Origin: Planctomycetota bacterium
GTDB lineage: Bacteria > Planctomycetota > J058
DNA length: 39,521 bases
Assembly (NCBI GenBank): GCA_024711205.1
Contig: JANJTH010000234.1
Span: 1 to 39,521 of the forward strand
Reading direction: 5' to 3'
Of this stretch, positions 12,692 through 36,900 are shown piece after piece. The notes beneath the pieces are model-generated. The model was not told the origin of the DNA, made no database searches, and saw nothing but the letters and a program-made list of their open reading frames with translations. The position numbers and the translations under genes are program-made. Every line of letters starts with the position of its first letter. Within the stretch, counting starts at the first letter, position 1.

Positions 12692-12888
12692 AGTGCCGCC
12701 TCAAGTCGAGCTGCATGCTACATCGGTCGGACGCGCGCGTGCGACTCGCGTATCACTCGCCGAGGACGCGCGGGGTAGAGCTGTTCTTGCCAGGGGCCCG
12801 AGCTCGCCGTCTGACCCGGCTGCCAATCCCGGGACGGGGACATGTGACGCCCCGCTGCGCGGCGCCTGGGGAGGCGATGCGCACCCGA

Positions 12889-13131
12889 CTGCCCGCCCAC
12901 GAGACGGTCTTCGCCATGACGATCCACAAGGCCCAGGGCTCCGAGGTCGCCCACGCCCTCGTGGTCCTCCCCCTCGAGCCCTCCCCGCTCCTCACCCGCG
13001 AGCTCGTCTACACGGCCGTCACCCGCGCCAAGGCGCGCGCCACCGTGCTCGCCCGCCCCGCCGTGCTCCGCCAAGCCCTCGCCCGCACCGTCCGCCGCGC
13101 GACCGGCCTCGAGCCGGCGCTGTGGGGGTGA
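12889..13131 (+). pseudogene. Direct repeat copy 2: detached recD 3' fragment
   Basis: Encodes LPAHETVFAMTIHKAQGSEVAHALVVLPLEPSPLLTRELVYTAVTRAKARATVLARPAVLRQALARTVRRATGLEPALWG, near-identical to the RecD C-terminus but lacking all upstream motifs. Confidence 0.93.
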
Positions 13132-13993: not shown

Positions 13994-15178
13994 ATGGCTA
14001 CGGTCGGGGTCCGCGGGGGCGTGGCGGTGGCGACCTGGTCGTTGTTCGTCGACGAGTCGGGGGACTTCGATCGGGACCTCGGGCTCGGGCGCGAGCAGAG
14101 GATCGTCGTCGGGGTCCTCGCGCAGGCAGAAGCCGTGCGCGGGCTCGAGGCGGGGCTGCGCGACGCCCTCCGAGCGAGCGCGCCGTGGATCCCCTGGCCG
14201 CCGCACGCGACGCTGCTGCGGCGCCCGGTGTGCCACGCGCTCTGGGTCGGGCCCTGGCTGGGCACGGCCTCGAAGCGCGGCCGGCAGCGGGCGGACGCGG
14301 CGATCCGCGCGCGCGACGTGCTCGAGCGGGTCGCGGCCCTGGAGACCCGGGCGCTCACGGCCGCTCTGCAGGCGCGCCCGAAGGCCGATCACGCGCGCCT
14401 CCGTCGCCTGGAGGACGCGCTCGAGCGCGCGGACCCGAGCCTCTGGCGCGAGGTCTGCACCCTGGCCGAGGACGTCCGGGACCGCATCACGCAGGCGTTC
14501 CTGCGCCTGTCGAGGCCCCCCGCCGAGGGTGCCCTGCCGCGCTGCGTCCTCCTGGCCGCGGGCGAGGCCGCGCGCGGGGAGGAGCCCGCGAGTCGCTTGT
14601 CCGGGCGCTACCTCCCGCTCCTCGAGCTCCTGCTCGAGCGGGTCGCGGACGCGCTCACCGCCCTGGGCCTGCGGACGGGTGACCACGAGCACCGCGTCGA
14701 GGCCCACCTGCTCGGTCGGGACGTCGAGGACGACGCCCACGAAGAACGGCTGCCCCTCGACCGGGGCCACGTCGATCAGGTCTTCGACGCGACGACCGGG
14801 GGCGGCCCCGTGCGGCGCGCGGCCGGCGTGGCGGTCGAGCTCGCGCTCGGCGGCGTGCACGCCTTCGACGCCCAGGCCAGCCCCGGGCTCGTGCTGGCCG
14901 ACTTCGCGGCGAACGCGTCGCTCGGCCCGCTCTCGTCGAGCGCCGGACTCGGCACCGTGCGCGGGCTGGTCGCGCAGAACACGGGCCTGCCCGTCGAGCT
15001 CCAGCCCGAGGTCCCGTCGCTCCTGGCCGCCGGCGGAGACGCCCGGCGGCGGACGCTCGCCGCGCGCGGCCGGGCGGCGCCGTCCCCGCCCGGTCAGGCG
15101 CCGCTACGGCGCTGGGCCTCCGAGCAGGCGGACGCCTGGGCGCCGGTCCTCGCCGCCTGGGCCGAGGCGAGCCCGTGA
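13994..15178 (+). CDS. DUF3800-like (predicted RNase H fold) protein
   Basis: N-terminal TWSLFVDESGDFDRD and C-terminal SPGLVLADFAANASLG are typical of DUF3800 (FIDESGDF ... LADxxA). Confidence 0.65.
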   Translation: MATVGVRGGVAVATWSLFVDESGDFDRDLGLGREQRIVVGVLAQAEAVRGLEAGLRDALRASAPWIPWPPHATLLRRPVCHALWVGPWLGTASKRGRQRADAAIRARDVLERVAALETRALTAALQARPKADHARLRRLEDALERADPSLWREVCTLAEDVRDRITQAFLRLSRPPAEGALPRCVLLAAGEAARGEEPASRLSGRYLPLLELLLERVADALTALGLRTGDHEHRVEAHLLGRDVEDDAHEERLPLDRGHVDQVFDATTGGGPVRRAAGVAVELALGGVHAFDAQASPGLVLADFAANASLGPLSSSAGLGTVRGLVAQNTGLPVELQPEVPSLLAAGGDARRRTLAARGRAAPSPPGQAPLRRWASEQADAWAPVLAAWAEASP

Positions 15179-15900
15179 CCTGCGCCGGCTGCGGCGCCGA
15201 CCCGAGCGATCTGGCGGTCGCGTTCGAGCGCCGTCACCACCCGTGCTGCCATCAGCAGGCGTTCGTGACCCTCCACGCCGCTTGCTCGGACCTGGCGACC
15301 ACGATCTCGGGGCTCCCCGCTGACGCGCGGGACGACGTTGTCCTCAAGGTCCTGGGCAAGCTCCTGAAGAAGCCGGCGACCGAGCAGCTCGAGACGGTCG
15401 GGCGCACCCGTGCCTACATCCGGAAAGCGCTCAGGCACGCCTGGAAGGACGAGCTCCGGCGGATCGAGCGCCAGAACCGCCTCCTGAGCAAGGCGCCGCC
15501 GCCACCGCCGCCCGAGGAGCCCGAGGAGCCAGGCCCCGGTCGCGCGGAGCTCGCCCTTGGTCTCGAGGCCGTCCTCGCCGAGGCGAGCCTGGGCCTGCGC
15601 GGCAGCGAGGCCCGGGAGGGCTTCCTGCGCCGCTTGCGCGGACTGATCGACCTCCACCTGCGCGACAAAGGCTCTCGCGCCGACCACCTGGCCGCCGAAG
15701 GCCTCGACGCGAGCAAAGTGAACGTGCTCGAGAAGGCGCAGGAGCGAGACCGGGCCAAGCTGCTCCACCATCTCCTCGAGCGAGCCCGGGCCGCGCGAGC
15801 AGCGGCCGACGCTGACGAGCAGGAGCGCCTGAGGCACTTGAGTCGGGCCGTGTCGCGCCTCAAGGGCCCGAAGCGCCCGAAGGGCCCGCAGGGTGGCTGA
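15175..15900 (+). CDS. Putative sigma-70/ECF-like protein
   Basis: GLPADARDDVVLKVLGKLLKKP...GRTRAYIRKALRHAWKDELRRIERQ resembles sigma region 2 (DxxDxVQxxxxKLL ... YLxxxxRNxxxDxLRR); starts inside the previous gene's stop (GTGA). Confidence 0.45.
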   Translation: MTCAGCGADPSDLAVAFERRHHPCCHQQAFVTLHAACSDLATTISGLPADARDDVVLKVLGKLLKKPATEQLETVGRTRAYIRKALRHAWKDELRRIERQNRLLSKAPPPPPPEEPEEPGPGRAELALGLEAVLAEASLGLRGSEAREGFLRRLRGLIDLHLRDKGSRADHLAAEGLDASKVNVLEKAQERDRAKLLHHLLERARAARAAADADEQERLRHLSRAVSRLKGPKRPKGPQGG

Positions 15901-16266
15901 CGTGTTGCGGCAAGCCGCTCCGCGCGTCGGCGGCGGCCCGTGTCAGGCCGGAGCCGAGCGCACGTCCCGCGCGCGCTCGACGCGCTCGAGCCGAACCGTG
16001 TCGCGCCTCAAGGGCCCAAAGCGCCGGGTAAGCGTTCAGGGGGCTCCTCCTCTCTTTGTAGGGGAGGGGTTTACCCCCTCCCCGTCATGGCGGCCCGCAG
16101 GGACGGGCGGGGCTAAACCCCGCCCCTACGAAGACATGAACGGTGTCCCGTCCCCCCTGAACGCTTACAGCGCCGGAAGGCTCCCCAGGGTGATTGACCT
16201 GGCGCGGCAAGGACTTCCGCCCGCCGGAGCCGGCCCGCGTCAGGCCGGCGCCGAGCGAGCGTCCTC
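15850..16266. repeat. Diverged tandem duplication (about 110-120 bp unit, copies at 15850-15969 and 15998-16027 plus 16177-16266) covering the 3' end of the sigma-like gene
   Basis: With the MITE and one TSD removed, the first 110 bp align without gaps with 90 matches by eye; both copies encode VSRLKGPKR...(P/A)PQG(G/D)-stop. Confidence 0.85.
16028..16168. mobile_element. 141-bp MITE with IS66-type terminal inverted repeats and 8-bp target site duplication
   Basis: Left end GTAAGCGTTCAGGGGG (16028-16043), right end CCCCCTGAACGCTTAC (16153-16168), perfect 16-bp TIR; flanked by AGCGCCGG at 16020-16027 and 16169-16176; two internal GC hairpins; no coding capacity. Confidence 0.93.
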
Positions 16267-16305
16267 GTGTCGGGACACGGGCGGGGTCCCGTGCTCGGAG
16301 TCGCC

Positions 16306-17370
16306 ATGAATCCCATGCAGGACCACGTCGCGGCGCTGCGCGAGCTCGGGCTCGGCGGGCTCGACCTCGAGCCCGTCGCGATCGTCTCGCTCGCGGCCCA
16401 GGGGCCGGCCGAGGTCGCGCAGGGGCTGCAGGCCGCCCCCGAGGCCGTGGCCGGGGTGCTGGCCGCCGTGCTCGACGACCCGCGCCCCAGCCCGCACCCG
16501 ACGCAGCTCCCGCGCTCGTGGCTCCACGCCTTTCGGGACGCGCGCTACGACGCGGTCGTCGCGCTCGGCGCGGACGACGGCCTGGCCCTGGCGAGCACCA
16601 GCCGCGCGCTGCCGGGGATTCTCGAGCGCAAGGGCACGATCGCGGTCGACCTCCGGTTCTTCCAGGGACCGGCCGTCCTGCGCCCCACGGGCCTCGACGC
16701 GGCGTTGATCGTGCGCGCCGCGCCGGGGACGAACCGCCTGCTCGAGTTCGTGCTGCTGGAGCAGCCCGACCCCGACGCGCCGCGCGCGCTCCCGGCCCCG
16801 GACGTCGTGGCCTGGATCGGCGACGACGCCTGGCTGACCGCGAGCGTGGCCGAGCGGCTCCGCGCCGGCACGCCGATCGAGGTCGCGCAGGCCGTGGGCG
16901 ACGTGTGGCGCCTCCGCCGACGATCGCCCGAGGCGACGCGCGAGCACCTCGCGGCGCTGCTCGCCGGCCGGCCGGTCGCGGCCTTCGACCCGCCGCGGGC
17001 CTGGGCCGGGGCCCTCCCGGCCGAGGACCGGGACCGGCTCGAGCGGAGGGGCCTGGCCGCGGTCGACCTGCTCGAGACGCAGCTCGACGACGCGCTCGAC
17101 GAGGCGGACGTCGACGATCCGGCCTGGCAGCGACGGCTCCTGGCGCTCTGCCACCGGCGCGACGCGCTCGAGGGGCTGCTCCTCGTGCTCCAGGGCGCCG
17201 GCGGCGGCGCTGCGCTGGCCACGGCACTCGCGGCGCTCGACGATCGCGGCCAGGCGGTCTTCGGCGGCCTGCGCGATTGGCCGGCGCCGGCCGACGACGA
17301 GCGGCTCCGCCGCGCGGCCGAGCTCGACCCCGACGCCTGGTGGGCCGCCCCGGTCCGCGCCAAGGACTGA
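16306..17370 (+). CDS. Hypothetical protein
   Basis: Full-length ORF from MNPMQDHVAALRELGL; just upstream of and codirectional with the Lon-like gene; no family recognised. Confidence 0.65.
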   Translation: MNPMQDHVAALRELGLGGLDLEPVAIVSLAAQGPAEVAQGLQAAPEAVAGVLAAVLDDPRPSPHPTQLPRSWLHAFRDARYDAVVALGADDGLALASTSRALPGILERKGTIAVDLRFFQGPAVLRPTGLDAALIVRAAPGTNRLLEFVLLEQPDPDAPRALPAPDVVAWIGDDAWLTASVAERLRAGTPIEVAQAVGDVWRLRRRSPEATREHLAALLAGRPVAAFDPPRAWAGALPAEDRDRLERRGLAAVDLLETQLDDALDEADVDDPAWQRRLLALCHRRDALEGLLLVLQGAGGGAALATALAALDDRGQAVFGGLRDWPAPADDERLRRAAELDPDAWWAAPVRAKD

Positions 17371-17373
17371 CCC

Positions 17374-19317
17374 GTGCTGTGCCGGCTGCTCGCGCCGCTC
17401 CGCCCGCGTCACGAGCGGCTGGCCGCCCGGCTCACGCTCCTCCACGCGCCCTGGACCTGGCCTCGCGAAGACCTCCACGCCGCGGCCGCGGCCCGGGCTC
17501 GCGAGCTCACGGGCTCGGAGGGCCCGCGCGCGCCCCGGCCGGGCGAGGCGCTGCTCCTGTCGTGCCGCGACGGGTTCGGCGGCGTGTTCCCGCTGGCCCT
17601 CCCGGGGCCGGGCCCTGGCGCCCAGGCCCTGACGCTCGACGCCGCCGGAACCTGGTCGGCGGCCTGGCACGCGGTCGGCCGCTCGGCGCGGCTCCTGTGG
17701 CGCTCGCCCCGCCCGCGCCAGGCAGGCCTGCACGCGCACCCGCTCCGGCCGCTGCCCGACGCGCCGCCCCTGATCGACCCCCGGATCCCGGAGGACGGCG
17801 CCTGGACGACTCCTCCGAAGGTCCTGCAAGGCGACTCATTCGGGCTCTCCTTCGCGCTCGCCCAGGCGTCCGCCCTCTGGGACTGGCCCTTGCCGCTCGA
17901 CGTCGCGGCCTCGGCGGAGGTGAACGCAAGCGGCGGCCTCGCGAAGGTCGACGAGCGCGGGCTCGAGCTCAAGGTCCGCGCGGTGCTTCGGCTCGCGCCC
18001 CAGGTCCGGCGCCTGCTGGTCGCCGAGGCCCAGGCGGCGGTCGCGCGCGGGGTCGTCGCCGCGGCCCTCGCGGAGCAGCGCCGGAAGCTCGGGGTCGACC
18101 TCGAACTCGACGTCGTGGCCTGCCACGACCTCGCCGCGGCGTTCGACGCCGTGCGCCCCGACCTGACCCGCGACTGGGAGGCCACCGGCGACGACGACGC
18201 GACCCGGCGCGAGCGGATCGAGCGCCTCGTCCGCCTCGCGCTCGCGCGCCGCGACGAGCTGCTCGACTGGCACCCGGTCCGGGAGGCGGCCCGCGTGGCC
18301 GGGAAGACGTGGTCTCGCGCCACCCCCGACGAACGCTGGACCCTGGGCTTCGTCGAGGCCGTCGCGGCCCGCCACGAGGGCGAGGCGGTCGAGCTCGAGC
18401 TGCCGGATCGGGCGGTCCTCCACGCCGTCCCGCAGCCGCGGCGGCTCGAGCTCGTGGCGCACCTCGTTCAGCAGGCGACCGACACGGGGGCCCCCGACCC
18501 GGGGGCGCTCGTGGAGCTCGCGCGCCCCATGCTGCTGCGCGGGGCCGAGGCGTTCCCCAAGCACCTCGAGCTGCAGGGCGCGCTCGGCCGCCTGCTCGCC
18601 AACCTCGCCCGCCCCAAGGATGCCTTCGAGGAGCAGCTCGAGGCGGCCCGCGGCTGGGTCGCGCGCCCCGGCCTCGTCGGCGTCAGCTACCCGCTCGCGG
18701 AGGCCTACCGGCTCGCGGGCGTCCTCGGCTCCCCCGAGCGGTTCGAGCAGGTAGCCGCGCTCGACCGCGAGGCGCGCGCCGAGGGCGCGCTCGGCGAGAG
18801 CGACCTGCCCTGGGTCGACCCGCCCCGGGCCCGCGCGCTCCTCCTCCTGGACCGGCTCGACGACCTCGCGGGCTTCCTCGCCGAACGTCCCTGGGACGTG
18901 CGGGAGCCGGAGGGTCGCCTCGGGCCGGCCGAGCTCGTCGCCGCGCTCTGCCTGGGCCGGCTCCACCACGCGTTCGCGCTGCGCGGGGCCGACCTCGCCA
19001 AAGCCGAGGCGGTCCGGTCCTGCCTCGCGGGCTGGGCCCGGACCGCGGAGCTCCGCGCGCAGCAGGCCGCGCCGCGCGGCGACGAGACCCTGGCTGCGCG
19101 CAGGCAGGCCCACCGCCGCGCCCTCGCGACCGCCCTGGCCCTGGTCGAGCTCGACCTCGCGCTCGCGCGCGCACCGGGCGACGAGGACCCCGCCGCGCCG
19201 GCCGGCCGCCTCGCGGTGCTTCACCCCAAGCTCGTCCGCTTCCTCCGCGCGCGCTGGGCCCCGCCCGACCCCGGTGCCTGGCCCGGGGTGCTGGCCCGGG
19301 TCTTCCCCTACGGCTGA
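17374..19317 (+). CDS. Protein with Lon-like (S16) peptidase domain plus helical repeat-like C-terminus
   Basis: QGDSFGLSFALAQASALWDWPLPLDVAASAEVNASGGLAKVDERGLELKVRAVLRLAPQVRRLLVAE parallels the Lon Ser-Lys dyad region; candidate Ser155 and Lys200 are 45 residues apart (43 in E. coli Lon); GTG start. Confidence 0.6.
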   Translation: MLCRLLAPLRPRHERLAARLTLLHAPWTWPREDLHAAAAARARELTGSEGPRAPRPGEALLLSCRDGFGGVFPLALPGPGPGAQALTLDAAGTWSAAWHAVGRSARLLWRSPRPRQAGLHAHPLRPLPDAPPLIDPRIPEDGAWTTPPKVLQGDSFGLSFALAQASALWDWPLPLDVAASAEVNASGGLAKVDERGLELKVRAVLRLAPQVRRLLVAEAQAAVARGVVAAALAEQRRKLGVDLELDVVACHDLAAAFDAVRPDLTRDWEATGDDDATRRERIERLVRLALARRDELLDWHPVREAARVAGKTWSRATPDERWTLGFVEAVAARHEGEAVELELPDRAVLHAVPQPRRLELVAHLVQQATDTGAPDPGALVELARPMLLRGAEAFPKHLELQGALGRLLANLARPKDAFEEQLEAARGWVARPGLVGVSYPLAEAYRLAGVLGSPERFEQVAALDREARAEGALGESDLPWVDPPRARALLLLDRLDDLAGFLAERPWDVREPEGRLGPAELVAALCLGRLHHAFALRGADLAKAEAVRSCLAGWARTAELRAQQAAPRGDETLAARRQAHRRALATALALVELDLALARAPGDEDPAAPAGRLAVLHPKLVRFLRARWAPPDPGAWPGVLARVFPYG

Positions 19318-23840: not shown

Positions 23841-26800
23841 ATGCGCAGAGTCACTGGTCGCGAGCTGATCGACATCGAGCTCGAGCTCGCCAATGCGTGC
23901 CGAGAGCTCGAGTTGCTGTGCGAGCTCGACCTCGACGAGCGGGACACTGACCACCTCGCTTCAGGTATCCGACGACTCATCGAGGCCATGGGTCCAGGGC
24001 GAGCAACGGACCACTTGGCCGAGAAGTGGTCCCACGTGCTTGCCGCTTACCTCGTGTTCGAGGGCCTCAGGGGCTACTCCCAGGGTGACTTCTGGTCGGC
24101 GGTCTGCGCAAAGACCGGCCTCCCCGGCCCCAACTACGCGTGGAGGTGGGGGGCGGTCTTCCGTCAGGTCCTGGAGAAGCACCGCCTGCCCACGTTCGAT
24201 GAGTCGGGTGGAAACGTCCATATCACCCCGATCCTCCTTCACGGCGGCATCCCTGCCTATTGCCTTGCCGATTTCGTGCGCGAGTTCGTGATCCCAGGAG
24301 TCACGCGACCTGAGTTCGCGGGGCTTCGCGCAGGCGACCTACTGGCCTCGTGGCGCGACTCGGCTCGCATGGAGCGAGGAGATCGCCCGATCCGCAGGTT
24401 CCTGCAGCACGGTGGTCGCGGGGCGGAGGATTTCCTCGATCGGAGCCTGGATCTGGTCCGTGCGGTGCTGTCCGGGCAGGACGCGCGACCAGCGGACCAC
24501 GGCCTGCCGGACAAGTTCGGTCAGGTCGTGACCGAGACCCTCGAGAGCACGAAGACCCGGGGGCTCAGCTACGGCGGTGGCGCCCTTGGCGCCACCCGCC
24601 GCCTCGCGCCCAGGCTTGTCCTCGACGCATGGGGCGTGGGCCTCACGCTGCACCTCCCCGAACAAGCGATCGACGGCCAAGCAGCTCGCTGGGAGATCAC
24701 GATCGACGGGCAAGACCCGCTTCGGCACGCGCCGCGTGCTTGGCGCGCGCAGGGCGGCCTTCACCTCGAGTCAGAATCCATCCGCCCCGCCGCGCCCTTC
24801 CGGCACCTGCGTGTCCAGCTCGTCGTGGATGACGAACCGTGCGGTGCGCCCTGGACAATCGAAGGACTGACGCCCGAGCAACCTCTGCTGGCCTTCGACG
24901 AGGAACGCCTCGAGAGAATCGCCACCCGCAGGTTGGAGCCCCGCCCCGCCTGGTTCGTCGTGCCGCGGGACGCCCGACTCGAGGGGGGCCGCCCACTCTG
25001 CGGTCCGGCGCGCCTGCCAGGCGCCTGGGGTGAACTGGAGGCGCGCTGCCTCGACCTGAGCGAAGTGACGCGCCTGCGATTCGGCCATGGCGGGCGAACG
25101 CTCGACATCCCGGTCCTCGAGGAGAGCGCCTTCGTGCGACTCGACGGCCCTGTGTTGGACTCCGTTTCCTCCGCTCAGCGTGGAGCCGTGTTCACGGGAG
25201 GACCGGTCAAGGCGCGCTTCGGTGGTGTTCGTGGTCGTGCTGCGCTCCGGCTCCTGCCCGACTCCGGCGCGAGCCTGGCCTCGCCGTTGACGCTCGAGCC
25301 GGAAGGCTCGTCCTCCTCAGGCGAGCACGCGCTCGACCTCGACGCGCTCGGTCTCGAGGGCGCGTTTGGCAGCTTCGTCGCAGTCGTCCGAGGAGCACTC
25401 GGCCACTCCTGCCGTGTCGCGTTCGCGATCGTGCCGGGCCTAAGCATCGAGTTCGGCACGACGGGGGCGCCCCACGCGATCCTGCGTTGCCCTGACGTGC
25501 TGTTGCGCGTGGAGGATGGCGGCTGGCTGGAACCCGCCCGGGGTGGCCAGCGCCTCGTGTTCACCCCTGAGCGCAGGGAGGCGATCGTCGTCGCGAGTCG
25601 AGGCGCGAACTCGGTCAGCCTTCGAGTCCCGAATCCGGCGCCGCGCTGGGCCTTGGTCGGCATGGAGGAGGAGACGGAAGTCATCGCTTGGCACACGCGC
25701 GCGCTCGAGACCGATCGCGAGCGCCTTGAGCTTGCCCAGGCGCCCGCGGTGGTCGTCGAGTGGCCGGTCGATCGGGGTAGCGAACCCAGGCTCGTCCTCG
25801 AGCGCGCCGGGGAGACCGTCCAGGTGCTCGAGGCAGCGCGCACGGGCCGCGTCGCGCGCTTCGAGCTCGTTCCTGCTCGAGCGAACCTCGAACGCCGGCA
25901 GGGTGGGTTTGCCCGACTCGTCCTTCAACCCGGAGGCCACGAGGTCGTCCGCGTGCGCTCTGCCTGGTCACCACGCAACGTCCAGGTCGAAGCTTACGTC
26001 GAGGGCGAGACCACCCGCGTCGTCGCGTCCTGGTCGAGCGACGACGCCCTCCCCGGTCGAGAGCTTGCTCTGTTCGACCTCCAGCGCCCGTGGAGGTCGC
26101 CGCTGGCGCTCTCGATCCCCGACGCCGATACGAGCCGCTGTGGTGTGGATCTGCCTCACGCGGCGCTGCCCGGGGGACCGACTCGAGCCTGGCTCCGCCT
26201 GCGCGACCCGTGGGCAGCCGACCCCCAACCCTGGGACGTCCCGGCTCCGGGCTCGCGAGGGGTGTGCGACTTCGTCGCGCCGCCTTCGAGTGCCTCGGAG
26301 CAGGTGGAGGACGGCGCCCTCGCGTGCATCGAACGCGCCTTGGCCAGCCCGAACGCTCGCGCCGCGCTCACAGCGCTCGGCGGACTGGGGTGCGTGCCCG
26401 TCGACGCCTTCTCCCGGGTCGTCGAGCTCCTCACGGTCCTCATCCGGTACCCGTCCACGGACACGGTCCACCAGCGGGTCCGAGAACGCCTGCAGGAGCT
26501 GGTCCAGGCCGATCACCGCCCCTTCCTGGTCGCCCTGGCGCGACTCGGCGAGCGCATGCCCGTGGACGCCTTGCGGACGCTTGCCCGCGGACAGGACCTC
26601 GGCCAGCGAATCGCCGGGCGGCACCGCACCCCGTTTGTCCGGAATCCCGCCGGGGACAAGCAGCTCCTGGAGGCGAGCGACGAACTGACGGCCGACGAGG
26701 TCGTCGAGTTGCTGAAGAAGCCCGAGGCGCCGGTCGAGGGAGAGCGCCTGTCCGACGGCGAACTCGATGCGCTCGGGCGCATCTCGCCCGCGCTCGTGGT

Positions 26801-27680
26801 CTTCCTGGAGTCAGCGACGCTTTGCGACGAGGCGGCTGGAGCTCGGCGCCGGTTCGAGCGCCTCCTCGGCGAAACGACCGTGCAGGAGCTGCAGCCACTG
26901 CGGCCAAGGACCGTCGTGGCTGTCGGAGACCAGCCCGTCCTTCTCGCCTCGGTCTACACGGATGGGCTCGAGGTCGGGGCCGCGCTTCACGGACCGCGAC
27001 TGCCGGGTGGCCTCGTGCTCGTCGGCCAGCAGGTGCCTGGTCCTGGAGAAGTGAGAATTGAGCTCCAGCGTGACGGAGGGGTCATCGCGCGTATCGCCGA
27101 GCAAGACATCCGCGCCGAGGGCCTCCGCATGGATCTGCAGCAAGCCTTTCCAACCAGCAGATTCGCCTGCTGGGCCGAGGCCTGGCGGCCCGCTTTCGAG
27201 GCCGTGAGCGATGGCTCGAGGCCTGAGCTCGCCGCGCTCGGTGGCGGCGTGAGCTCCGTTGCTGGCGGCTTGCTCGATGCGGACCGCCTCGTCATCGCGG
27301 TCCGCGAGGCGCTCGAGGGCGTGGGTCGTCTCGGCGCCAAGGAACGGAAGGCGCTCGAGGTCCAACTCGGCAACGCCACGAAGCTCCTGGAGCGAGGGCT
27401 CCAGCTGAACGCGAGCCGTCTGCCTCGCGCGTTCGCCGTGGCCATCCGCCGTCGCCAGCGACCCGAGGCCAGCCGGTTCTGGCTCATGCACCTGCCGTTC
27501 GCCTCGCTCGCCGCCGCGACCATGCAGCGCCTGTTGGCGCGGCGCGAGGCGCAGGACGTCGGCATCCGTCCTCTGCAGTTGGCCGAGCTGGCGCGCGCGC
27601 TGGCCGGGATCGCTCCTACTCTGCAAGAGCGGGACCTCTGCCTCGCCGAGCTCGCGCTCGCGTGGTTCCGGGAGACCTGA
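23841..27680 (+). CDS. druH: DruH-like large protein of a Druantia type III-like system
   Basis: About 1279 aa of unrecognised domain content directly upstream of a DruE-like helicase; ATG at 23841 after AACGGAGTAGGTGGG; call rests mainly on size and gene neighbourhood. Confidence 0.6.
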   Translation: MRRVTGRELIDIELELANACRELELLCELDLDERDTDHLASGIRRLIEAMGPGRATDHLAEKWSHVLAAYLVFEGLRGYSQGDFWSAVCAKTGLPGPNYAWRWGAVFRQVLEKHRLPTFDESGGNVHITPILLHGGIPAYCLADFVREFVIPGVTRPEFAGLRAGDLLASWRDSARMERGDRPIRRFLQHGGRGAEDFLDRSLDLVRAVLSGQDARPADHGLPDKFGQVVTETLESTKTRGLSYGGGALGATRRLAPRLVLDAWGVGLTLHLPEQAIDGQAARWEITIDGQDPLRHAPRAWRAQGGLHLESESIRPAAPFRHLRVQLVVDDEPCGAPWTIEGLTPEQPLLAFDEERLERIATRRLEPRPAWFVVPRDARLEGGRPLCGPARLPGAWGELEARCLDLSEVTRLRFGHGGRTLDIPVLEESAFVRLDGPVLDSVSSAQRGAVFTGGPVKARFGGVRGRAALRLLPDSGASLASPLTLEPEGSSSSGEHALDLDALGLEGAFGSFVAVVRGALGHSCRVAFAIVPGLSIEFGTTGAPHAILRCPDVLLRVEDGGWLEPARGGQRLVFTPERREAIVVASRGANSVSLRVPNPAPRWALVGMEEETEVIAWHTRALETDRERLELAQAPAVVVEWPVDRGSEPRLVLERAGETVQVLEAARTGRVARFELVPARANLERRQGGFARLVLQPGGHEVVRVRSAWSPRNVQVEAYVEGETTRVVASWSSDDALPGRELALFDLQRPWRSPLALSIPDADTSRCGVDLPHAALPGGPTRAWLRLRDPWAADPQPWDVPAPGSRGVCDFVAPPSSASEQVEDGALACIERALASPNARAALTALGGLGCVPVDAFSRVVELLTVLIRYPSTDTVHQRVRERLQELVQADHRPFLVALARLGERMPVDALRTLARGQDLGQRIAGRHRTPFVRNPAGDKQLLEASDELTADEVVELLKKPEAPVEGERLSDGELDALGRISPALVVFLESATLCDEAAGARRRFERLLGETTVQELQPLRPRTVVAVGDQPVLLASVYTDGLEVGAALHGPRLPGGLVLVGQQVPGPGEVRIELQRDGGVIARIAEQDIRAEGLRMDLQQAFPTSRFACWAEAWRPAFEAVSDGSRPELAALGGGVSSVAGGLLDADRLVIAVREALEGVGRLGAKERKALEVQLGNATKLLERGLQLNASRLPRAFAVAIRRRQRPEASRFWLMHLPFASLAAATMQRLLARREAQDVGIRPLQLAELARALAGIAPTLQERDLCLAELALAWFRET

Positions 27681-27682
27681 CC

Positions 27683-30600
27683 ATGACACGCACCCTTCAC
27701 CCCATCGAGTCCTTCGCTGCGGTCAGGGACGAGTATCTGCGCTACCTGCGGAGCTTCTTCCGGTTCCGCGACCCGAAACTCGAGGCGCAGTTCGGCCGGG
27801 AGATCTCTACGCCGGGGCGCCTCGTGCGCGGACCTCTCCTCGAGTCGGTGCCGCCGTTCGTGCTTGGCCCCTCGATCCGCGACCTGGTCGAGGAGGGCGT
27901 GCTCTCGGCCGGCTTCGAGCGGCTCTGCGCGCGAGCTGGCACAGAGCTCCCCTATGACCGCCCTCTCTATGCTCACCAGGCGCGCGCAATCCGACTCGCC
28001 GTCGGCGAGGGCCGGAACGTCGTGGTCGCCACCGGAACTGGCAGCGGCAAGACCGAGTCCTTCGTGCTGCCGATCCTTGACCGCCTTCTTCGGGAGGAGG
28101 AGGAAGGGAGGCTCGGGCCCGGAGTGCGAGCTCTGCTGCTCTACCCGATGAACGCGCTCGCGAACGACCAGGTGAAGCGCCTCCGGAGGATCCTCTCCAG
28201 GTATCCGTCGATCACCTTTGGTCGGTACACGGGCCAGACCGAGGACGAGCCGCGCAGGGCCCGCGCGGAGTTCCGGAAGGTCAACCCAGGAGAGGAGGAG
28301 CTCGAGCACGAGCTCAAGAGTCGCGAGGAGATGCAGGCCACCCCGCCTCACATCTTGCTCACGAACTACGCCATGCTCGAGTATCTGCTGCTGCGCCCAC
28401 AGGACATCTCGCTGTTTGAAGGCCCGTCGACCGGGACGTGGGCCGACGTGGTGATCGACGAGGCCCACGTCTATGACGGCGCGAACGGCGCCGAGGTCGC
28501 GATGCTCCTGCGGCGAGTCCGCGACCGGGTCGCTCGAGGACGGAGCCTCCGCTGCTTCGCCACGAGCGCGACGCTCGGCTCGGGAAACTCGGCCCGCGAC
28601 GCCGCCGCGGGGTTTGCACGCACGCTCTTCGATCATCCCTTCGAGGCGACCGACGTCGTCCACGCAGAGCGGATCGAGTTGCCCGTCTTGGCACCGACCG
28701 ACGCCTGGAGACCGGCGCCCTCGTTGTATGGAGCCCTCGGCACCGCGCTGGAGAATGATGCGTCGAGAGACGAGTTGGGAGCGATCTGTACCCGTCACGG
28801 CGTGCCTGCCGCAGTCGTGGACGCTGCGCGCCGGCGTCGAGCCGTCGACGCGGCTCCGGCCTCCACGCCCGTCGCGACGACACCGGACGACCCTTGGGGG
28901 CTTGGCGGGTCCGCGCCGTCGCGGGTCGCGGCGGCCGTGAGAGCACCTCGGGACGACGTCTCGGGCTTCCTCTACGACGTGCTCGTCGGTGACGCGAACC
29001 TCGCGACGCTGCGCCGTCTCCTCAAGGAGGGCGGCCCGACGCTCGTAACCGAGCTCGTCGGCGCGGTGCTCGGGGAAGGCGACGAACGAGGACAACTCGA
29101 GGAGCTGGTCCAACTCGTGAGGCTGGCTGCCATGGCGAGGAAGGACCCGCGCTCCATGGCCCTCTTGCCCGCGAGGTACCACGTTTTCTGCAGGGCGATC
29201 GACGGTGTCTTCGTGTCCTTGGTCGAGGAACCCCTCGTGGAGCTCGGCACTGGTCGCCGGCTGTTCCTTGATCGGTGCGATCGGCATGAGCTTCGTGGCC
29301 AGTCGGTCCGGGTCTTCGAGCTCGCAGCGTGTCGCCGGTGCGGGCTCGAGCTCGTGTTCGGCTACCTCCGACCCACCGAGCCTCAGACACGGGAGCTCGT
29401 CCAGCTCAGCCCGGCCGAGCGCGAGGCCGCGGCGACCACGGCCACGCCGCTCGAGCCAGCGTACTTCGCCCTCGGGGTCGACGAGCCGGCTCCGCTCGAC
29501 GAGGACGGCGAGGTGCTGCAGCCGGAGCCGACACCCGAGCCGGCCCCGCCACCAGAGAAGCCCGCAGCCGACGGCAAGCCGGACGTGCCGGAGGGTGGCC
29601 CTCGCCGCCGCGCGCCGAGGGAGGGCGCACCGAAGGCTGTCCAACCCGACGCGTATCGACTCTGCGCTGCCTGTGGAGCGGTGGAGGAGGCCTCACCGCT
29701 GGCAGGTTCCTGCCGGTGCGAGCGACCGTCATGGCTGCCCGTCCGTCGCGCGGCGACCTCGCGTACCGACGAGCTCAAGTGCTGTCCTGGGTGCGGCGGC
29801 AGCTCGGTGGGTGGCGAGTCTCATCTGCGTTTCCTCACAGGTCAGGACGCGCCGGTCGCCGTCATTGCCGCGGCGCTCTACCACCAGCTCCCAGCCCTCG
29901 ACGCCACGCCGTCGGGTGGACGCAAGCTCCTGTGCTTCGCCGACAGCCGGCAGGACGCAGCGTTCTTCGCTCCTTATCTGGAGAGGAGCTACGGCACGCT
30001 GTTGCAGCGGCGGCTGATCGCCATCGCCCTCGAGCAATGCCGTGGCGCGGTGAACTTCGAGACGCTGGCGGACCAGGTTCGCCGGGCCGGCGAAACGAAG
30101 GGGGTCTTCCAGGCCGGCGCGACTCAGGCCGAACGGCAGACCGAGGCGCGACGCTGGCTCATGCGCGAGCTCCTGTCGCTCGATCGCGACATCGGCCTCC
30201 TTGGCCGAGGGATCCTCCACGTCGACGTGGAAGAAGTCCCGCCACTCCCCCGGCCCATTCTCGACGCGTGGAAGCTCGATGACGCGCAGGGGACCCAGCT
30301 CGTGAAGGCTCTGCTGACGAGCCTCGTCCCGCAGCATGCCATCGAGTTCCCGGTGGGCGTGCAGCCCACACACGAGGACTTCGAGCCGAGGAACTTCGAG
30401 ACGTTCGTTCGGGACCAGGGCTCCGATCGCATGAAGCGGATCCTGAGCTGGGTCCCGGCCACCCCGACCGGCAACAACCGCCGCCTCGACTACCTGCGCC
30501 GCGTTCTCGAGCGCAGCAAGGGTCGTCCGGCGGGAGTAGACCTCGTCTTCGATCTGCGCCGGCTGTTCGAGTGGGCCACCAAGGTGGCCCGCCTGCTCGT

Positions 30601-33600
30601 GCCCAAGACGATCCCGAACGAGGGCGAGGTCTTCCAGGTCCCGCTGTCGAGGCTGGCGTTCGAGTCGACAGCGGCCCGCGACCTCCGGCTCTGGCGCTGT
30701 GACCGCTGCCAGCTCGTCACGTCCTTCTGCTGCGCTGGGGCCTGTCCCGGCTACCGCTGCACGGGAGCTCTCGCGCTGGCCGAGTTCCCCGAGGACGACC
30801 ACTACCGGCGCTACTACCGAGGCACCGAGCCCGTTCCCATGCGGGTCATGGAGCACACTGCGCAGCTGGCCACGACCGAAGCCGCGAAGGTCCAGTCCGA
30901 CTTCGTCGCCGGCGAAGTGAATGTTCTCTCGTGCTCGACGACGTTCGAGCTGGGCGTTGACGTGGGCGAGCTGCAGGCGGTGCTGCTGCGCAACGTACCG
31001 CCGACGACGGCGAACTACGTGCAGCGCGCCGGGCGCGCTGGTCGCCGGACCGACTCCGCCGCCTTCTGCGTGACGTACGTCCAGCGCAGGTCGCACGACC
31101 TGGCACACTACGCGCGGCCCGAGCGCCTCGTGGGCGGCGAGATCCGAGCGCCTCGGGTGAAGCTCGCCAATGCCAAGATCGCGCGGCGACACCTCCACTC
31201 CATCGTGCTCGCCCACTTCTTTCGAACGCGCGCGCCGGACTCGGTCGGCAAGTGCGAGGACTTCTTCGCCGCCGATGGCGCAAAGACCAGCGCCGTCGAC
31301 TCGCTCGGCGAGCTTCTCCGCGCGCGCCCACCTGAGCTCGCCGAGTCGCTCCGCCGGTGCCTTCCTCCCGCGTTGCACGACGAACTCGGCCTCGATGGTT
31401 GGACGTGGGAGCTCCACCTGCTCGGCGAAGCGGGGCTCCTTCAGTGCGCGCGTGAGGAGTATGAGCAGGAGGTGAGCCAGTTCCGCACCATGCGCGAGGA
31501 GGCGAAGACCGAGAACAAGCTCATGCGGGCCAATCAGCTCCAGGAGTACCTCAACACGATCCAGCGTCGAGAGCTCCTCGGCTACCTCGCCTCCCGGGGA
31601 GTCCTGCCGAAGTACGGCTTCCCGGTCGACGTGGTGCCGCTCAAGCTGTACGGGCACCGCGAGGCGGCGCGCCGTCTCGAGCTCGAGCGGGATCTGTCGT
31701 TGGCGATCTCGGAGTACGCACCCGGCTCCTCGGTCGTGGCTGGCGGTCGTCTCTGGACGAGCCGCGCGGTCGCGCTGCGACGGGACCGGAAGCTCCCGCC
31801 GAGCGACTACTCCGAGTGCCGCTGCGGCTGGTTCCGGCGGTGGACCGGCAACGCGACCGAAGGCGCCCGCCCGGTGGAGTGCCCTCGCTGCAGGAGCGAC
31901 AAGCTGATTCACGGGAGCTACGTCGTTCCAGAGTTCGGCTTCGCGACCCTTGCCGACGACGAGCCGCGGGCCCCTGGGGCGTCACGACCGATGCGGGTCT
32001 GGGCGTCGCGGGTGCACTTCGTTTGCGACGACACAACGGATCATGAAGTGGTGCTCGGTGACGGCGAGCGACGTCGGACCGTGAGCATCGCCCGGCGTGC
32101 CCGCGGCGAGCTGGTGCTCGTCAACGCAGGACGCGCGAGTGTCGGCTACTGGATCTGCGATTACTGTGGCTTCGGCGAGCATGTCGCCAGCTCCGCCAAG
32201 CCGCCGAAGGATCACAAGCGCCCCTGGGGCAGCAAGTGCAAGGGCTTCTTTGAGCGGCCGCGCGCGCTCGGCCATGCGTTCCTCACCGATGTGTGCGAGC
32301 TCCGCTTTCCTGGCGCCGCGGCGACGACGGACACGAGGTTCTGGTCCAGCCTCCTCTATGCGGTTGTGGAGGGTGCGGCGAGCGCCCTCGAGCTACGCCG
32401 CGACGACATCGATGGGTGTCTCCACGCACTTGACGCCGATGAACCTTCGGTCGTCCTCTTCGACACCGTGCCCGGTGGGGCCGGCTTCGTCGAGCTGCTG
32501 CGCGAGCCCGAAGCGCTCGAGGCGGTCCTTCGTGCTGCATTCACTCGGGTAGAGGACTGCTCGTGCGCGGAGGACACGAGTTGCTACGAGTGCCTACGGG
32601 GCTACCGGAACCAGTGGTGTCACGACCAGCTCGTGCGCGGCCCGGTCCGGGCGTACCTGGAGGAGCTGCTGTCCGCGGTCTCCGGTGCACGCATGCACAT
32701 TCAGCCGGTCCCGGCGGTCGACCCCGGCCGCTGGCTGGCACGGGAGGTCCTTGCCGCCCGCAGCGTGGAGCTCGCCGTGCGAGGGTTTGGCTTTTCGAGC
32801 GAGCTCGACGCCGCTGCGCTCGGCCTGGCGCAGGACTGGTGGGAGATCATGGGCCAGGCAGCCCAGCGAGGCGCCAACGTTCGCCTCATGATCGGGGTCC
32901 CCAATCGGCCCTCGATCACGCGTCGACCGGACGACGGCCGGACGCTGACCGAGCTGCGTGCACTGGCCGAGCGAGGCGTGGACGTGCGACCGCTCGGACC
33001 GCGCGCGTCTCGCCCGGACTGGGACATGGCGCTCGTATGCGGAGACGGAACGACTGCGCGCCGCCGCTTGGTGCGGCTGCGCCGCACCACGGACGACCGC
33101 GAACTGGTCTTCCTTCCGGCCATGTTGCGCGGGGCTGCGCTCGAGACGTCCCTTCACCCAGAGGTGGTCGCTAGCGGGGTCGCCGAGCTGTCCCAGTTGC
33201 TCAGCAGCGTCCAGCGGCTCTCGGCGTCCGATCCGCGGCTGGACCTGACCGGGGCTCAGGTGCGCAGGATCGAGAGGGGCGAGCGAGGGTCCATCGGTAG
33301 CTACTTCCGGGAGTATCTGAACGCGGAGGTCACGGCAGTCGAACTTCTCGACCCGTACGTGCGTCGCCCGGAGCAGTTCGTGAACCTGCGGCGACTCGTC
33401 GAGGAGCTGAGTCAGGTCGCCGGGCGGGCTCTCGAGGTCCGCCTCACGACGACCGCTCCCCCTTCCGAGCGCGAGGCGGAGGTTCAAGTCCAGGCCGCTG
33501 AGGTCGAGCAGCTTCGAGCCTGGGCGCAGGATCGACAAACGAACCTGCGAATCGACCTGCGACAGGATCGCGCGTTCCATGACCGTGAGGTTCGCCTCAT

Positions 33601-33733
33601 CGAGCCAGCGACCGACTCTCGGACGGTCGTTCTGATTGGCCGTGGCCTTGACACGTGGACGGACACCAGACGAGCGCGCGACGCCCTCTCGAGGGAGACC
33701 TACCTCGCGGCATTCCGAGAGCCACTCGTTTGA
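27683..33733 (+). CDS. druE: DruE-like DEAD/DEAH helicase with DUF1998 and C-terminal PLD-like/MIT_C-like region
   Basis: VVATGTGSGKTESFVLPILD, LLLYPMNALANDQ, VVIDEAHVYDG, CFATSATLGSG, ANYVQRAGRAGRRTDSAAF; DUF1998-like Cys motif CSCAEDTSCYECLRGYRNQWCHDQLVRG; ATG at 27683, 2016 aa. Confidence 0.75.
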   Translation: MTRTLHPIESFAAVRDEYLRYLRSFFRFRDPKLEAQFGREISTPGRLVRGPLLESVPPFVLGPSIRDLVEEGVLSAGFERLCARAGTELPYDRPLYAHQARAIRLAVGEGRNVVVATGTGSGKTESFVLPILDRLLREEEEGRLGPGVRALLLYPMNALANDQVKRLRRILSRYPSITFGRYTGQTEDEPRRARAEFRKVNPGEEELEHELKSREEMQATPPHILLTNYAMLEYLLLRPQDISLFEGPSTGTWADVVIDEAHVYDGANGAEVAMLLRRVRDRVARGRSLRCFATSATLGSGNSARDAAAGFARTLFDHPFEATDVVHAERIELPVLAPTDAWRPAPSLYGALGTALENDASRDELGAICTRHGVPAAVVDAARRRRAVDAAPASTPVATTPDDPWGLGGSAPSRVAAAVRAPRDDVSGFLYDVLVGDANLATLRRLLKEGGPTLVTELVGAVLGEGDERGQLEELVQLVRLAAMARKDPRSMALLPARYHVFCRAIDGVFVSLVEEPLVELGTGRRLFLDRCDRHELRGQSVRVFELAACRRCGLELVFGYLRPTEPQTRELVQLSPAEREAAATTATPLEPAYFALGVDEPAPLDEDGEVLQPEPTPEPAPPPEKPAADGKPDVPEGGPRRRAPREGAPKAVQPDAYRLCAACGAVEEASPLAGSCRCERPSWLPVRRAATSRTDELKCCPGCGGSSVGGESHLRFLTGQDAPVAVIAAALYHQLPALDATPSGGRKLLCFADSRQDAAFFAPYLERSYGTLLQRRLIAIALEQCRGAVNFETLADQVRRAGETKGVFQAGATQAERQTEARRWLMRELLSLDRDIGLLGRGILHVDVEEVPPLPRPILDAWKLDDAQGTQLVKALLTSLVPQHAIEFPVGVQPTHEDFEPRNFETFVRDQGSDRMKRILSWVPATPTGNNRRLDYLRRVLERSKGRPAGVDLVFDLRRLFEWATKVARLLVPKTIPNEGEVFQVPLSRLAFESTAARDLRLWRCDRCQLVTSFCCAGACPGYRCTGALALAEFPEDDHYRRYYRGTEPVPMRVMEHTAQLATTEAAKVQSDFVAGEVNVLSCSTTFELGVDVGELQAVLLRNVPPTTANYVQRAGRAGRRTDSAAFCVTYVQRRSHDLAHYARPERLVGGEIRAPRVKLANAKIARRHLHSIVLAHFFRTRAPDSVGKCEDFFAADGAKTSAVDSLGELLRARPPELAESLRRCLPPALHDELGLDGWTWELHLLGEAGLLQCAREEYEQEVSQFRTMREEAKTENKLMRANQLQEYLNTIQRRELLGYLASRGVLPKYGFPVDVVPLKLYGHREAARRLELERDLSLAISEYAPGSSVVAGGRLWTSRAVALRRDRKLPPSDYSECRCGWFRRWTGNATEGARPVECPRCRSDKLIHGSYVVPEFGFATLADDEPRAPGASRPMRVWASRVHFVCDDTTDHEVVLGDGERRRTVSIARRARGELVLVNAGRASVGYWICDYCGFGEHVASSAKPPKDHKRPWGSKCKGFFERPRALGHAFLTDVCELRFPGAAATTDTRFWSSLLYAVVEGAASALELRRDDIDGCLHALDADEPSVVLFDTVPGGAGFVELLREPEALEAVLRAAFTRVEDCSCAEDTSCYECLRGYRNQWCHDQLVRGPVRAYLEELLSAVSGARMHIQPVPAVDPGRWLAREVLAARSVELAVRGFGFSSELDAAALGLAQDWWEIMGQAAQRGANVRLMIGVPNRPSITRRPDDGRTLTELRALAERGVDVRPLGPRASRPDWDMALVCGDGTTARRRLVRLRRTTDDRELVFLPAMLRGAALETSLHPEVVASGVAELSQLLSSVQRLSASDPRLDLTGAQVRRIERGERGSIGSYFREYLNAEVTAVELLDPYVRRPEQFVNLRRLVEELSQVAGRALEVRLTTTAPPSEREAEVQVQAAEVEQLRAWAQDRQTNLRIDLRQDRAFHDREVRLIEPATDSRTVVLIGRGLDTWTDTRRARDALSRETYLAAFREPLV

Positions 33734-33965: not shown

Positions 33966-36900
33966 TCAGTCGCCTTGCTGGCCGAGGTGACGCGTGACGC
34001 CGGCCACGCCCGTCCGTGCGCCCCCGAGCCCGCGAGTGAGACGCGAATTGCGTGCGGCGGGCCGGCCGCTGGAATCAGGCGGAATCGGACCACCGACCAC
34101 ACGCCCCTCTGTGGTCGTGCCCGCCCACCTGGTGACGACCGAAGCGGCACCTCCCGCCGCCGTTACGAGGCCCTCGAGCCAGGAAGGTTCCTCGTCCTGG
34201 TCGTGCGCGCCGTAGGTCCCCAGGTGGTTCAGCACACGGAAGCTCCGTTGAACGGCCTCGGGGATTCGCCGGTCCTGACGTGGTCCCCTGGACCAGGCAG
34301 CGAGCGCGTCGAGGCGCGGCTGGAGATCCTTGCCGTCGCTCCTGCTGGCCTGCTCCGGTGAGGTCCACCGCTCCTCGGCCAGCCTTACAGCTCGCTCGAG
34401 CATGATTCGATACTGCTGCAGGGCCTGCTTCCATTCGCGCTTGCGAGCGTGCCGCTTCGCCTCCCTCTCTGCCCCCACGACCTCCTTCTGAACCGCGACG
34501 CAGCGTCGCCGGCGCTCCTCAGGGTCGAACCATGTCGGGTTTCGCGCTCGGAGGATGTCTCGACGCTCTGCCTCGGTGATCTGGCCTGATCGAGCCAAGG
34601 TCGTGAGAAGCGCGTTGAATTCGCCAGGCTTCAGGAGCGCGATCTCACCCTCGACCAGCTTCGGAAGCGCATCCCGCGGGATCCGGTGGACCCGTCGGAG
34701 GTCGAGCGACCAGGCACCTGGGCCGCCCTTGGCGACTTCGCGGAGCAGGGCCTTCTTGCTGCGAGCCTCGAGCCCCATGGGGTAGGCCATGACGGCGTCC
34801 TTGCTGTCCCAGAGGATCAGAATCACCTCGGGAATTCCCGGGAAGACGACGTCGCGACCGCGCAGCAAGTCACCCCGAGGCCTTCGAAGGTCGGGCAACG
34901 TCGCCTTGAGAAGATGCCCCGGACCGTAACGGACGTCCTCGCTCGGCCCTTTCCGGTCCAGGCCAGGGTTCGGTGCCGACGCCTCGCGTTCAGAGCGCCG
35001 CTGTGCTTGCTCGAGGCCCCGCTCCGCCTCGAGCACGTCCTCGTCGAGGAACCCACTCGGCCAAGTCGTCGGCTCGCCCCGCTCCGTCAACTCGACACGT
35101 GTCAAGGTCGCAGACGCGGCCACTCCCTCGCTCCCTTCGTGGAGCTCCGTGAAGTAGACGCCAACCCGCTCCGCGCACAGTTCGCCTGCGCCGACGGCCC
35201 GGCAGATCCGCCGCACGACGAGGTCGGATTGGGTCTCGAGCAGGATGGACTTCCCGGCACGCACGTGCTCCAGCAGGTGCTCGATCAGTCGCACCTGCAG
35301 GGCCGGGTGGAGGTGCACCTCCGGATTCTCCAGGACGAGCGTCTCCCCTGGCTGGGCGACCGTGGCCTGAAGAACGATCGGATAGAGGTGATGCCAGCCC
35401 GTGCTCATTTCAAGCGGGACGGCGCGCTCCGCCGCCGGGAACGCGGGGGAACTGAACCGTCGCTGGTGTTCCTCCCCCAAGCCGATTGACCCTCTGTACG
35501 GCCAGAGCATCCGCCGTTGTGTATCGAGCGGCCCTGGGTCGAGTTGCACTGCGCTGGGGCCCGGGACGGTCGCGCGCGAGGGTGACCGGGTCAACGACCC
35601 GATCACTTGATCCATGACGTCGGCGAGCGAGTTGGTGCTGCGTTGAAAGTGTATCGCCGCAATACTTGTCAGGTCGAGGAGCAGGAGCTCGTTCCGCCGT
35701 CGGAGGTCGGCCGGCTCCAACTTGGTGCCCGCGCACGAGAGAAGGAAAGCAAGCTCGGAACGCCGGGACAAGGACAGTCCCCTGCCGCGGCTTAAGAGCC
35801 GGGCCGGACTGGGGACGAGGTCCCTGTGCTCTACCCAATGCCGGACGCAGCCTCGCGTGAGCTGGGCCAGCTCCGTCATGCCGTGGAGCTCCTTCAGCAA
35901 GGCGGCGAGGCTCTCATGCCACTGATTCGCAACTTTGCTCTTCACCCCTCTGCTGTAAGAGAGCGGCTGGAAGTACCCGTAGTCGGACCTGGACCTCAGC
36001 GCATGATCGAGTTCGGGCAGGATGCGCCTGCCCAGCTCTTCCCAGGGGTCGCGGACAGGTTCGGGCAGCAGCGCGAGCCAGCGTGCCTGCTCTTCCGCCG
36101 AGATGCAGTCCGACGGGAACAAGACATGACGGCTCAACGCGAGCGCCTGTTCGTCCGAGAACTCGAGTCGCTTGGCGTGCGCCGCGAACGGGGGCTCGAG
36201 CGGACGAGTGTAATCGAATCCGATCGCTGACAGGACCTTCAGGGTTCGCTCCCCGCGAACACCTACGTGACGTCGAGAGACGTTCGGCGCGAGGCTGATC
36301 TTCGTCTCGACCGCGCTACGGGAGATCGCAGAGATCTCTCGGATCGACCCGACATGGAAGGAGCTGTCCACCACGGGGCAGAGCGTGCTTCGAAGACGCG
36401 AGGTCAGCGCGCGGACGAGCGGATCCCGGAACACGGGCCCATGCGCCTCACGGGAGCATGAGTGGCGTGCGAGGTCGCTCCCGGCAGGGCACTTGAATGT
36501 CACCTCGGCCTTTGCAGCAGGTGAGTCCGTGTTGCCCGAGTGGTTCAAGCGTGCCGCGAGGGTCCCTGCTCCGTGGAGCGTCATGGCGCACTCGGTCGAG
36601 CGTAAGGTCCCGGCGTCGAAGTGGCGACTGTATGTGTAGCTCGTGCGGACGGTGAAGGTGAAGCGGGCGCCCTTCGGCGCCTTCCCTCGCCAGAGCCACG
36701 CGTCGAAGTCCGGAGTGACCGTGGGGGCGGATTTGGGGCGGGACAGTTCGCCACAGTCCAGATCGGCCAGCAAGACGAACTCGAACTGGATCTCTCCAGG
36801 CTTCTCCGCCCCCTCCAGCGTGCGATCCCGCGAGACGAGATGGCCCATGTCGTAGTCGCGCTCCCTCCCGACCCGTAGCCACTCCCTCCGCACGATGGGA

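Follow-up and report, generated by a model that had tools for sequence, protein, structure and literature searches.

A conserved sigma-factor-like and Lon-type protease gene core in three bacterial phyla, possibly a protease-gated sigma switch used mainly in defence

We have analyzed a gene cassette in a 39,521-nucleotide stretch of DNA (the window: positions 1 to 39,521 of contig JANJTH010000234.1, assembly GCA_024711205.1) from a Planctomycetota bacterium. The conserved unit consists of three genes, here called genes 2, 3 and 4, which encode, in this order, a sigma-factor-like protein, a protein without a recognised family and a Lon-like protein; a DUF3800-like gene in front of them, gene 1, is optional. 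The most economical reading of this unit is a third protease-gated sigma switch. We consider it somewhat better than an even bet, at a probability of about 0.55, that genes 2-4 form such a switch, used mainly in defence and built on the plan of the Calp and Csx29-Csx30-CASP-sigma systems. The features of the window locus are as follows.

13994..15178, + strand: gene 1, DUF3800-like protein, 394 aa, presumed RNase-H-fold nuclease; optional member
15175..15900, + strand: gene 2, sigma-factor-like protein, 241 aa, region 2 recognisable
16028..16168, no strand assigned: MITE-like element between genes 2 and 3, an insertion outside the conserved cassette
16306..17370, + strand: gene 3, no known family, 354 aa, candidate anti-sigma factor and protease substrate
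17374..19317, + strand: gene 4, Lon (S16) protease domain followed by a TPR-like helical region, 647 aa, AAA-less
17836..17838, + strand: Ser155 codon of gene 4, predicted nucleophile, in the Lon catalytic Ser column and invariant in 12/12 sequences
17971..17973, + strand: Lys200 codon of gene 4, predicted catalytic Lys, in the Lon catalytic Lys column and invariant in 12/12 sequences

The four ORFs are codirectional, with an overlap of 4 bp between genes 1 and 2 and a spacing of 3 bp between genes 3 and 4; this confirms the coordinates and layout given in an earlier note on this DNA, which did not mention the 405 bp that separate genes 2 and 3. The frame of gene 3 extends up to a GTG at 16267, and comparison with relatives makes the ATG at 16306 the most likely start. 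Codon statistics favour all four ORFs as genes, but they were trained in part on these very genes; their conservation across phyla speaks more strongly for them.

Gene 4 has clear relatives in 4 of 393 Planctomycetota, 2 of 195 Myxococcota and 4 of 347 Acidobacteriota genomes (the window genome included), and a second Acidobacteriota MAG, additional to this count, has a near-identical locus. The independent loci number 11: ten with readable flanks and an eleventh, cut by a contig end, in which genes 3 and 4 are visible. The sigma-like gene, gene 3 and the Lon-like gene are adjacent and collinear at all ten readable loci, which span the three phyla, although at G581 the sigma-like gene was assigned by position, its copy having been missed by the profile. 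Core genes at these loci overlap or are closely spaced, often with 4-bp overlaps, the exception being the gap in the window. Since the identical gene order recurs in three phyla, mostly with short overlaps, the arrangement is far beyond chance. A gene 3 profile, built from the same members and thus liable to miss remote relatives, was searched against 740 genomes and recovered exactly the gene 4 loci and none besides. The co-occurrence check suggested in the earlier note therefore finds that genes 3 and 4 do not occur independently; the four-gene unit that it had proposed shrinks to genes 2-3-4, gene 1 being missing at four of the ten loci. Distance matrices of the three core proteins correlate with r of 0.59-0.67, uncorrected for shared species descent. 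Contig searches with a single protein returned nothing, and those with a 4-member alignment returned 6 loci, 3 of them new. No relatives were found among viral contigs and plasmids. Weak gene 4 profile matches in other planctomycetes (~19-33 bits) were set aside; those in open frames of ~780-880 aa are similar only over the S16 stretch and look like ordinary Lon, and those of ~470 aa are perhaps RadA.

By profile comparison and structural modelling the assignment of gene 4 to Lon is solid. The window copy scores below the Pfam cut-off for Lon (S16), and the family profile matches E. coli Lon in the PDB (8.5e-8). The AlphaFold model has a mean pLDDT of 70, mostly 77-94 over residues 150-260, and matches Lon/RadA protease domains in Foldseek with probability 1.00; there were 65 matches at E <= 0.001, and those listed are Lon or RadA. 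The S16 call of the earlier note thus survives both the profile and the fold test. Its proposed Ser-Lys dyad is upheld as well: S155 and K200 occupy the Lon catalytic Ser and Lys columns and are invariant in all 12 sequences compared, across three phyla. Gene 4 is accordingly a predicted protease with an intact dyad. The remainder of the protein is modelled as all-helical, and relatives show weak TPR matches and Lon_C matches in Pfam. Gene 4 has no Lon N-terminal domain, and no AAA ATPase module is seen, in agreement with the earlier remark that no AAA module is visible. SAVED is absent by Pfam and PADLOC in the window copy and by Pfam in two relatives, and gene 4 has no CARF domain and no recognised sensor domain.

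The sigma assignment of gene 2 holds, by profile, for region 2 only. The window copy matches TIGR02937 with an E value of 0.0012, under the cut-off of that model, and Pfam matches are likewise under cut-off; an orthologue matches Sigma70_r2 over the Pfam cut-off (3.8e-7), and a match to the ECF factor SigL (8.5e-5) was obtained with the family profile. Ten members were searched for sigma region 4 without a Pfam match. A conserved R-A-R stretch at the end of the protein resembles the end of ECF region 4 in the alignment, a likeness that is only suggestive. The sigma call of the earlier note is thereby borne out for region 2, with region 4 undetected in these ten members.

Gene 3 has no match in Pfam, NCBIfam or PADLOC, its profile finds no PDB chain at E <= 1, and a Foldseek fold search gave no significant match. 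In the alignment its most conserved part comprises the C-terminal helices and a closing P-x-A-W-W motif. Because it is placed between the sigma-like and protease genes and is strictly linked to both, it is a candidate for an anti-sigma factor and protease substrate.

Gene 1 scores 12.8 bits against the Pfam DUF3800 model (cut-off 21) in the window copy, and the relatives scanned are also below the cut-off. Its residues D20, E21, G23, H71 and D303 are invariant in 6 of 6 relatives, and the motif order, D-E-S-G, His, A-D, is that of DUF3800. An hhalign comparison with bona fide DUF3800 proteins was weak and aligned only the C-terminal A-D motif. A match to C45_proenzyme (E 0.042) and other sub-threshold Pfam matches were taken as noise. 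In certain class 2 CRISPR loci DUF3800 is reported to be a nuclease with an RNase H fold (PMC10910872, PMC12669027). The gene lies directly upstream of the core at six of the ten readable loci (window, G048, G091, G393, G581 and G782) and is absent from the other four (G394/G395, both copies in G914, and G714). It is presumed to encode a nuclease and may be a common co-encoded effector. The DUF3800-like member named in the earlier note thus stands as regards its motifs, with a sub-threshold match and an optional place in the cassette.

The gap between genes 2 and 3 in the window is due to an insertion. Elsewhere the junction ranges from a 4-bp overlap up to a gap of ~100 bp. The MITE-like element at 16028-16168 is 141 bp long, with perfect inverted ends of 16 bp and an 8-bp target duplication (AGCGCCGG), and diverged copies of it occur on at least five other contigs of the window genome. 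The sequence that surrounds it is a diverged tandem duplicate (period 156) of the gene 2 end. Co-transcription may therefore be looser in the window cassette than in the related ones.

Other features of the window lie outside the cassette. The last 248 bp (1371-1618) of a recD-like gene at 56-1618 are repeated with 98% identity at 12884-13131, 11.5 kb downstream. The repeats flank a block with CysD/CysN-like sulfate-activation genes and a run of minus-strand genes, an arrangement suggestive of an island that has inserted at the 3' end of recD. An interrupted recD was considered and rejected, the gene being complete at 56-1618 with only its end duplicated. The stretch 23841-33733 encodes a 1279-aa protein, unmatched in Pfam and PADLOC, and immediately after it a DruE-type helicase; the two are possibly a Druantia-like pair with an unrecognised partner. 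On the minus strand, 33966-37958 encodes a 1330-aa protein that matches OLD/NsnB-like defence ATPases; its AAA ATPase motifs fall into two groups, around 300-340 and 850-915, with ~500 residues between them.

Of the loci with readable flanks, most lie in defence contexts, and at least one lies among housekeeping genes. Three are embedded in type III CRISPR-Cas operons. At G048 the cassette is followed by cas6, csx1 (CARF-HEPN), cmr1, cas10, cmr3-5, a PrimPol-like gene, cas1 and cas2. At G091 a CRISPR array, cas10, III-D-like RAMPs, a CARF-HEPN gene and cas6 precede it. At G782 cas10 lies within ~115 bp after the cassette, followed by RAMP-like genes; close to the contig end there is an array. 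The GGDD motif is kept in all three Cas10 proteins. Because a Cas10 palm scored over the cut-off in only 34 of 150 sampled Planctomycetota genomes, we estimate the chance of a random locus lying within 15 kb of Cas10 at well under 1%, and three loci in ten are hard to obtain by chance. No Cas10 was detected in the window genome (~86% complete), so that within the assembled part the trigger of the window copy is not type III CRISPR.

Defence genes of other kinds accompany further loci. Downstream of the window cassette are SoFic, the DruE-type helicase, an OLD-like ATPase and McrC. Beside the core of G395 lie, on the minus strand at L010 10305-17224, genes for a HerA/mad8-like protein of 1786 aa and a mad7-like protein, which are part of a MADS-like defence set, and G581 has a large protein with a kinase-like region next to the core. 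An FHA-kinase-like gene was read from the sequence at G393. In two Acidobacteriota loci that lack the DUF3800-like gene, the second copy of G914 and G714, ordinary metabolic genes lie upstream and the core is followed by these features:

L063 11193-14474 and L065 10706-13960: OLD/LmuB-like ATPase and two small genes of no known family

The first copy of G914 is surrounded by lysine-pathway and other housekeeping genes. The PADLOC models match none of the four cassette proteins. A role in conflict, as put forward in the earlier note, agrees with the defence contexts of most readable loci and the three type III CRISPR operons; at least one locus has housekeeping neighbours instead.

Building on the observed domain identities, intact dyad, strict linkage, operon layout and CRISPR and defence contexts, we propose the following mechanism. 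Gene 2 would encode a divergent ECF-type sigma factor, which the gene 3 product would bind and keep inactive. Gene 4 would encode an ATP-independent Lon protease, itself inactive until a signal of infection is received, presumably by its TPR-like part; the source of this signal would be the type III machinery at CRISPR loci and another sensor elsewhere. Once activated, the protease would cut the gene 3 product and thereby free the sigma factor, which would activate the transcription of defence genes. The presumed DUF3800-like nuclease would be a common co-encoded effector. Regulated proteolysis of a sigma pathway in conflict, the central idea of the earlier note, is the best reading because the S16 and sigma calls survive, genes 3 and 4 co-occur and most loci lie in defence contexts, although the unit has no obligatory DUF3800-like gene. 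Several results count against the switch: gene 3 resembles no solved chain or fold, region 4 is undetected in gene 2 and no sensor domain is recognised in gene 4; in addition, the window genome has no Cas10, the first G914 copy has housekeeping neighbours and the window cassette carries the MITE-like insertion.

Three other explanations must be weighed. The cassette could control a toxin, with a DUF3800-like toxin restrained by the products of genes 2 and 3 and the Lon-like protease lifting this restraint on infection, without sigma-driven transcription. The 4-bp overlap of genes 1 and 2 in the window and several relatives, the position of gene 1 before the core at 6/10 loci and the reports of DUF3800 as an RNase-H-fold nuclease (PMC10910872, PMC12669027) would fit such an arrangement. 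We regard it as improbable: four loci keep the three-gene core but have no gene 1, which therefore cannot be the only target of the core, and gene 2 matches sigma factors. The core might instead be a regulatory or assembly complex, in which gene 4 encodes a scaffold that resembles a protease, and gene 2 an adaptor left with only a sigma-2-like fold. The S16 fold can have a non-protease role, as in RadA, which is among the Foldseek matches of gene 4, and region 2 alone was detected in gene 2. However, the invariance of the dyad Ser and Lys in 12/12 sequences from three phyla is unexpected for a scaffold, and the R-A-R stretch of gene 2, as read from the alignment, resembles ECF region 4; this explanation, too, seems unlikely to us.

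The defence neighbours could also reflect no more than shared islands, with the core serving as a sigma module for general stress responses that is not specifically linked to defence. The first G914 copy, with its lysine-pathway and other housekeeping neighbours, and the metabolic genes upstream of the second G914 copy and G714 are what such a module would predict. We nevertheless doubt it, given three loci within type III CRISPR operons when Cas10 occurs in so few of the sampled Planctomycetota genomes, and defence-type genes adjoining the core in the window, G395, G581, G714 and the second G914 copy. The protease-gated sigma switch used mainly in defence remains the reading that we prefer.

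More tentatively, and at slightly less than even odds, the sigma/anti-sigma/TPR-Lon core may be a portable one that has been coupled to several immune sensors (type III CRISPR, Druantia-type islands, OLD-like ATPases and MADS-like sets), that responds to protein contact at its TPR part and not directly to a cyclic nucleotide, and that represents a third lineage of protease-gated switches, found also outside CRISPR. To our knowledge, protease-to-sigma signalling in prokaryotic immunity has so far two lineages, SAVED-Lon and TPR-CHAT, each associated with type III CRISPR. If there is a third one that combines parts of these two and also occurs away from CRISPR, this would suggest that defence systems share the output module. 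Two questions would then become testable: the signal of a TPR-Lon protease and the target genes of a defence sigma factor.

A literature search that covered few subscription papers found no description of this sigma/gene 3/TPR-Lon combination. The cassette, a candidate new one in the earlier note, looks new in its combination of parts; the plan has precedents in CalpL/T/S and Csx29/Csx30/CASP-sigma. From the Lon (S16) family gene 4 has the protease fold and Ser-Lys dyad, but it lacks the AAA ATPase and Lon N-terminal domain and scores below the Pfam cut-off. Gene 1 shares its motif order with the DUF3800 nucleases found near class 2 CRISPR (V-A2, VI-F); in contrast to these, its similarity is sub-threshold and its neighbours are the sigma/Lon core and, where CRISPR-linked, type III systems. 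In the Calp system the SAVED-Lon protease CalpL cleaves CalpT, an anti-sigma factor bound to the ECF sigma factor CalpS (PMC11417357). The cassette resembles this system in combining an AAA-less Lon protease, a middle protein and an ECF-like sigma factor in one locus, and in its type III CRISPR linkage at three loci, with other CARF effectors alongside. It differs in that its Lon protein has no SAVED domain and has TPR-like helices after the Lon domain, gene 3 resembles no solved chain, a DUF3800-like gene is often present, and the majority of loci are away from CRISPR. In the type III-E Craspase, the TPR-CHAT protease Csx29 cleaves Csx30, which inhibits CASP-sigma; the structure of Csx30 is available as PDB entry 8EEY (PMC10028731). 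Here the likeness is in a TPR-containing protease, a middle protein and an ECF-like sigma factor, whereas the cassette has a Lon Ser-Lys in place of the CHAT Cys-His protease, its CRISPR partners are III-B and III-D-like systems with Cas10 and not Cas7-11, and gene 3 differs from Csx30 by sequence in the PDB profile search. Since SAVED and CHAT features were looked for and are absent, the cassette is a member of neither the Calp nor the Craspase family; without SAVED/CARF and CHAT, it combines the Lon of Calp with the TPR of Csx29.
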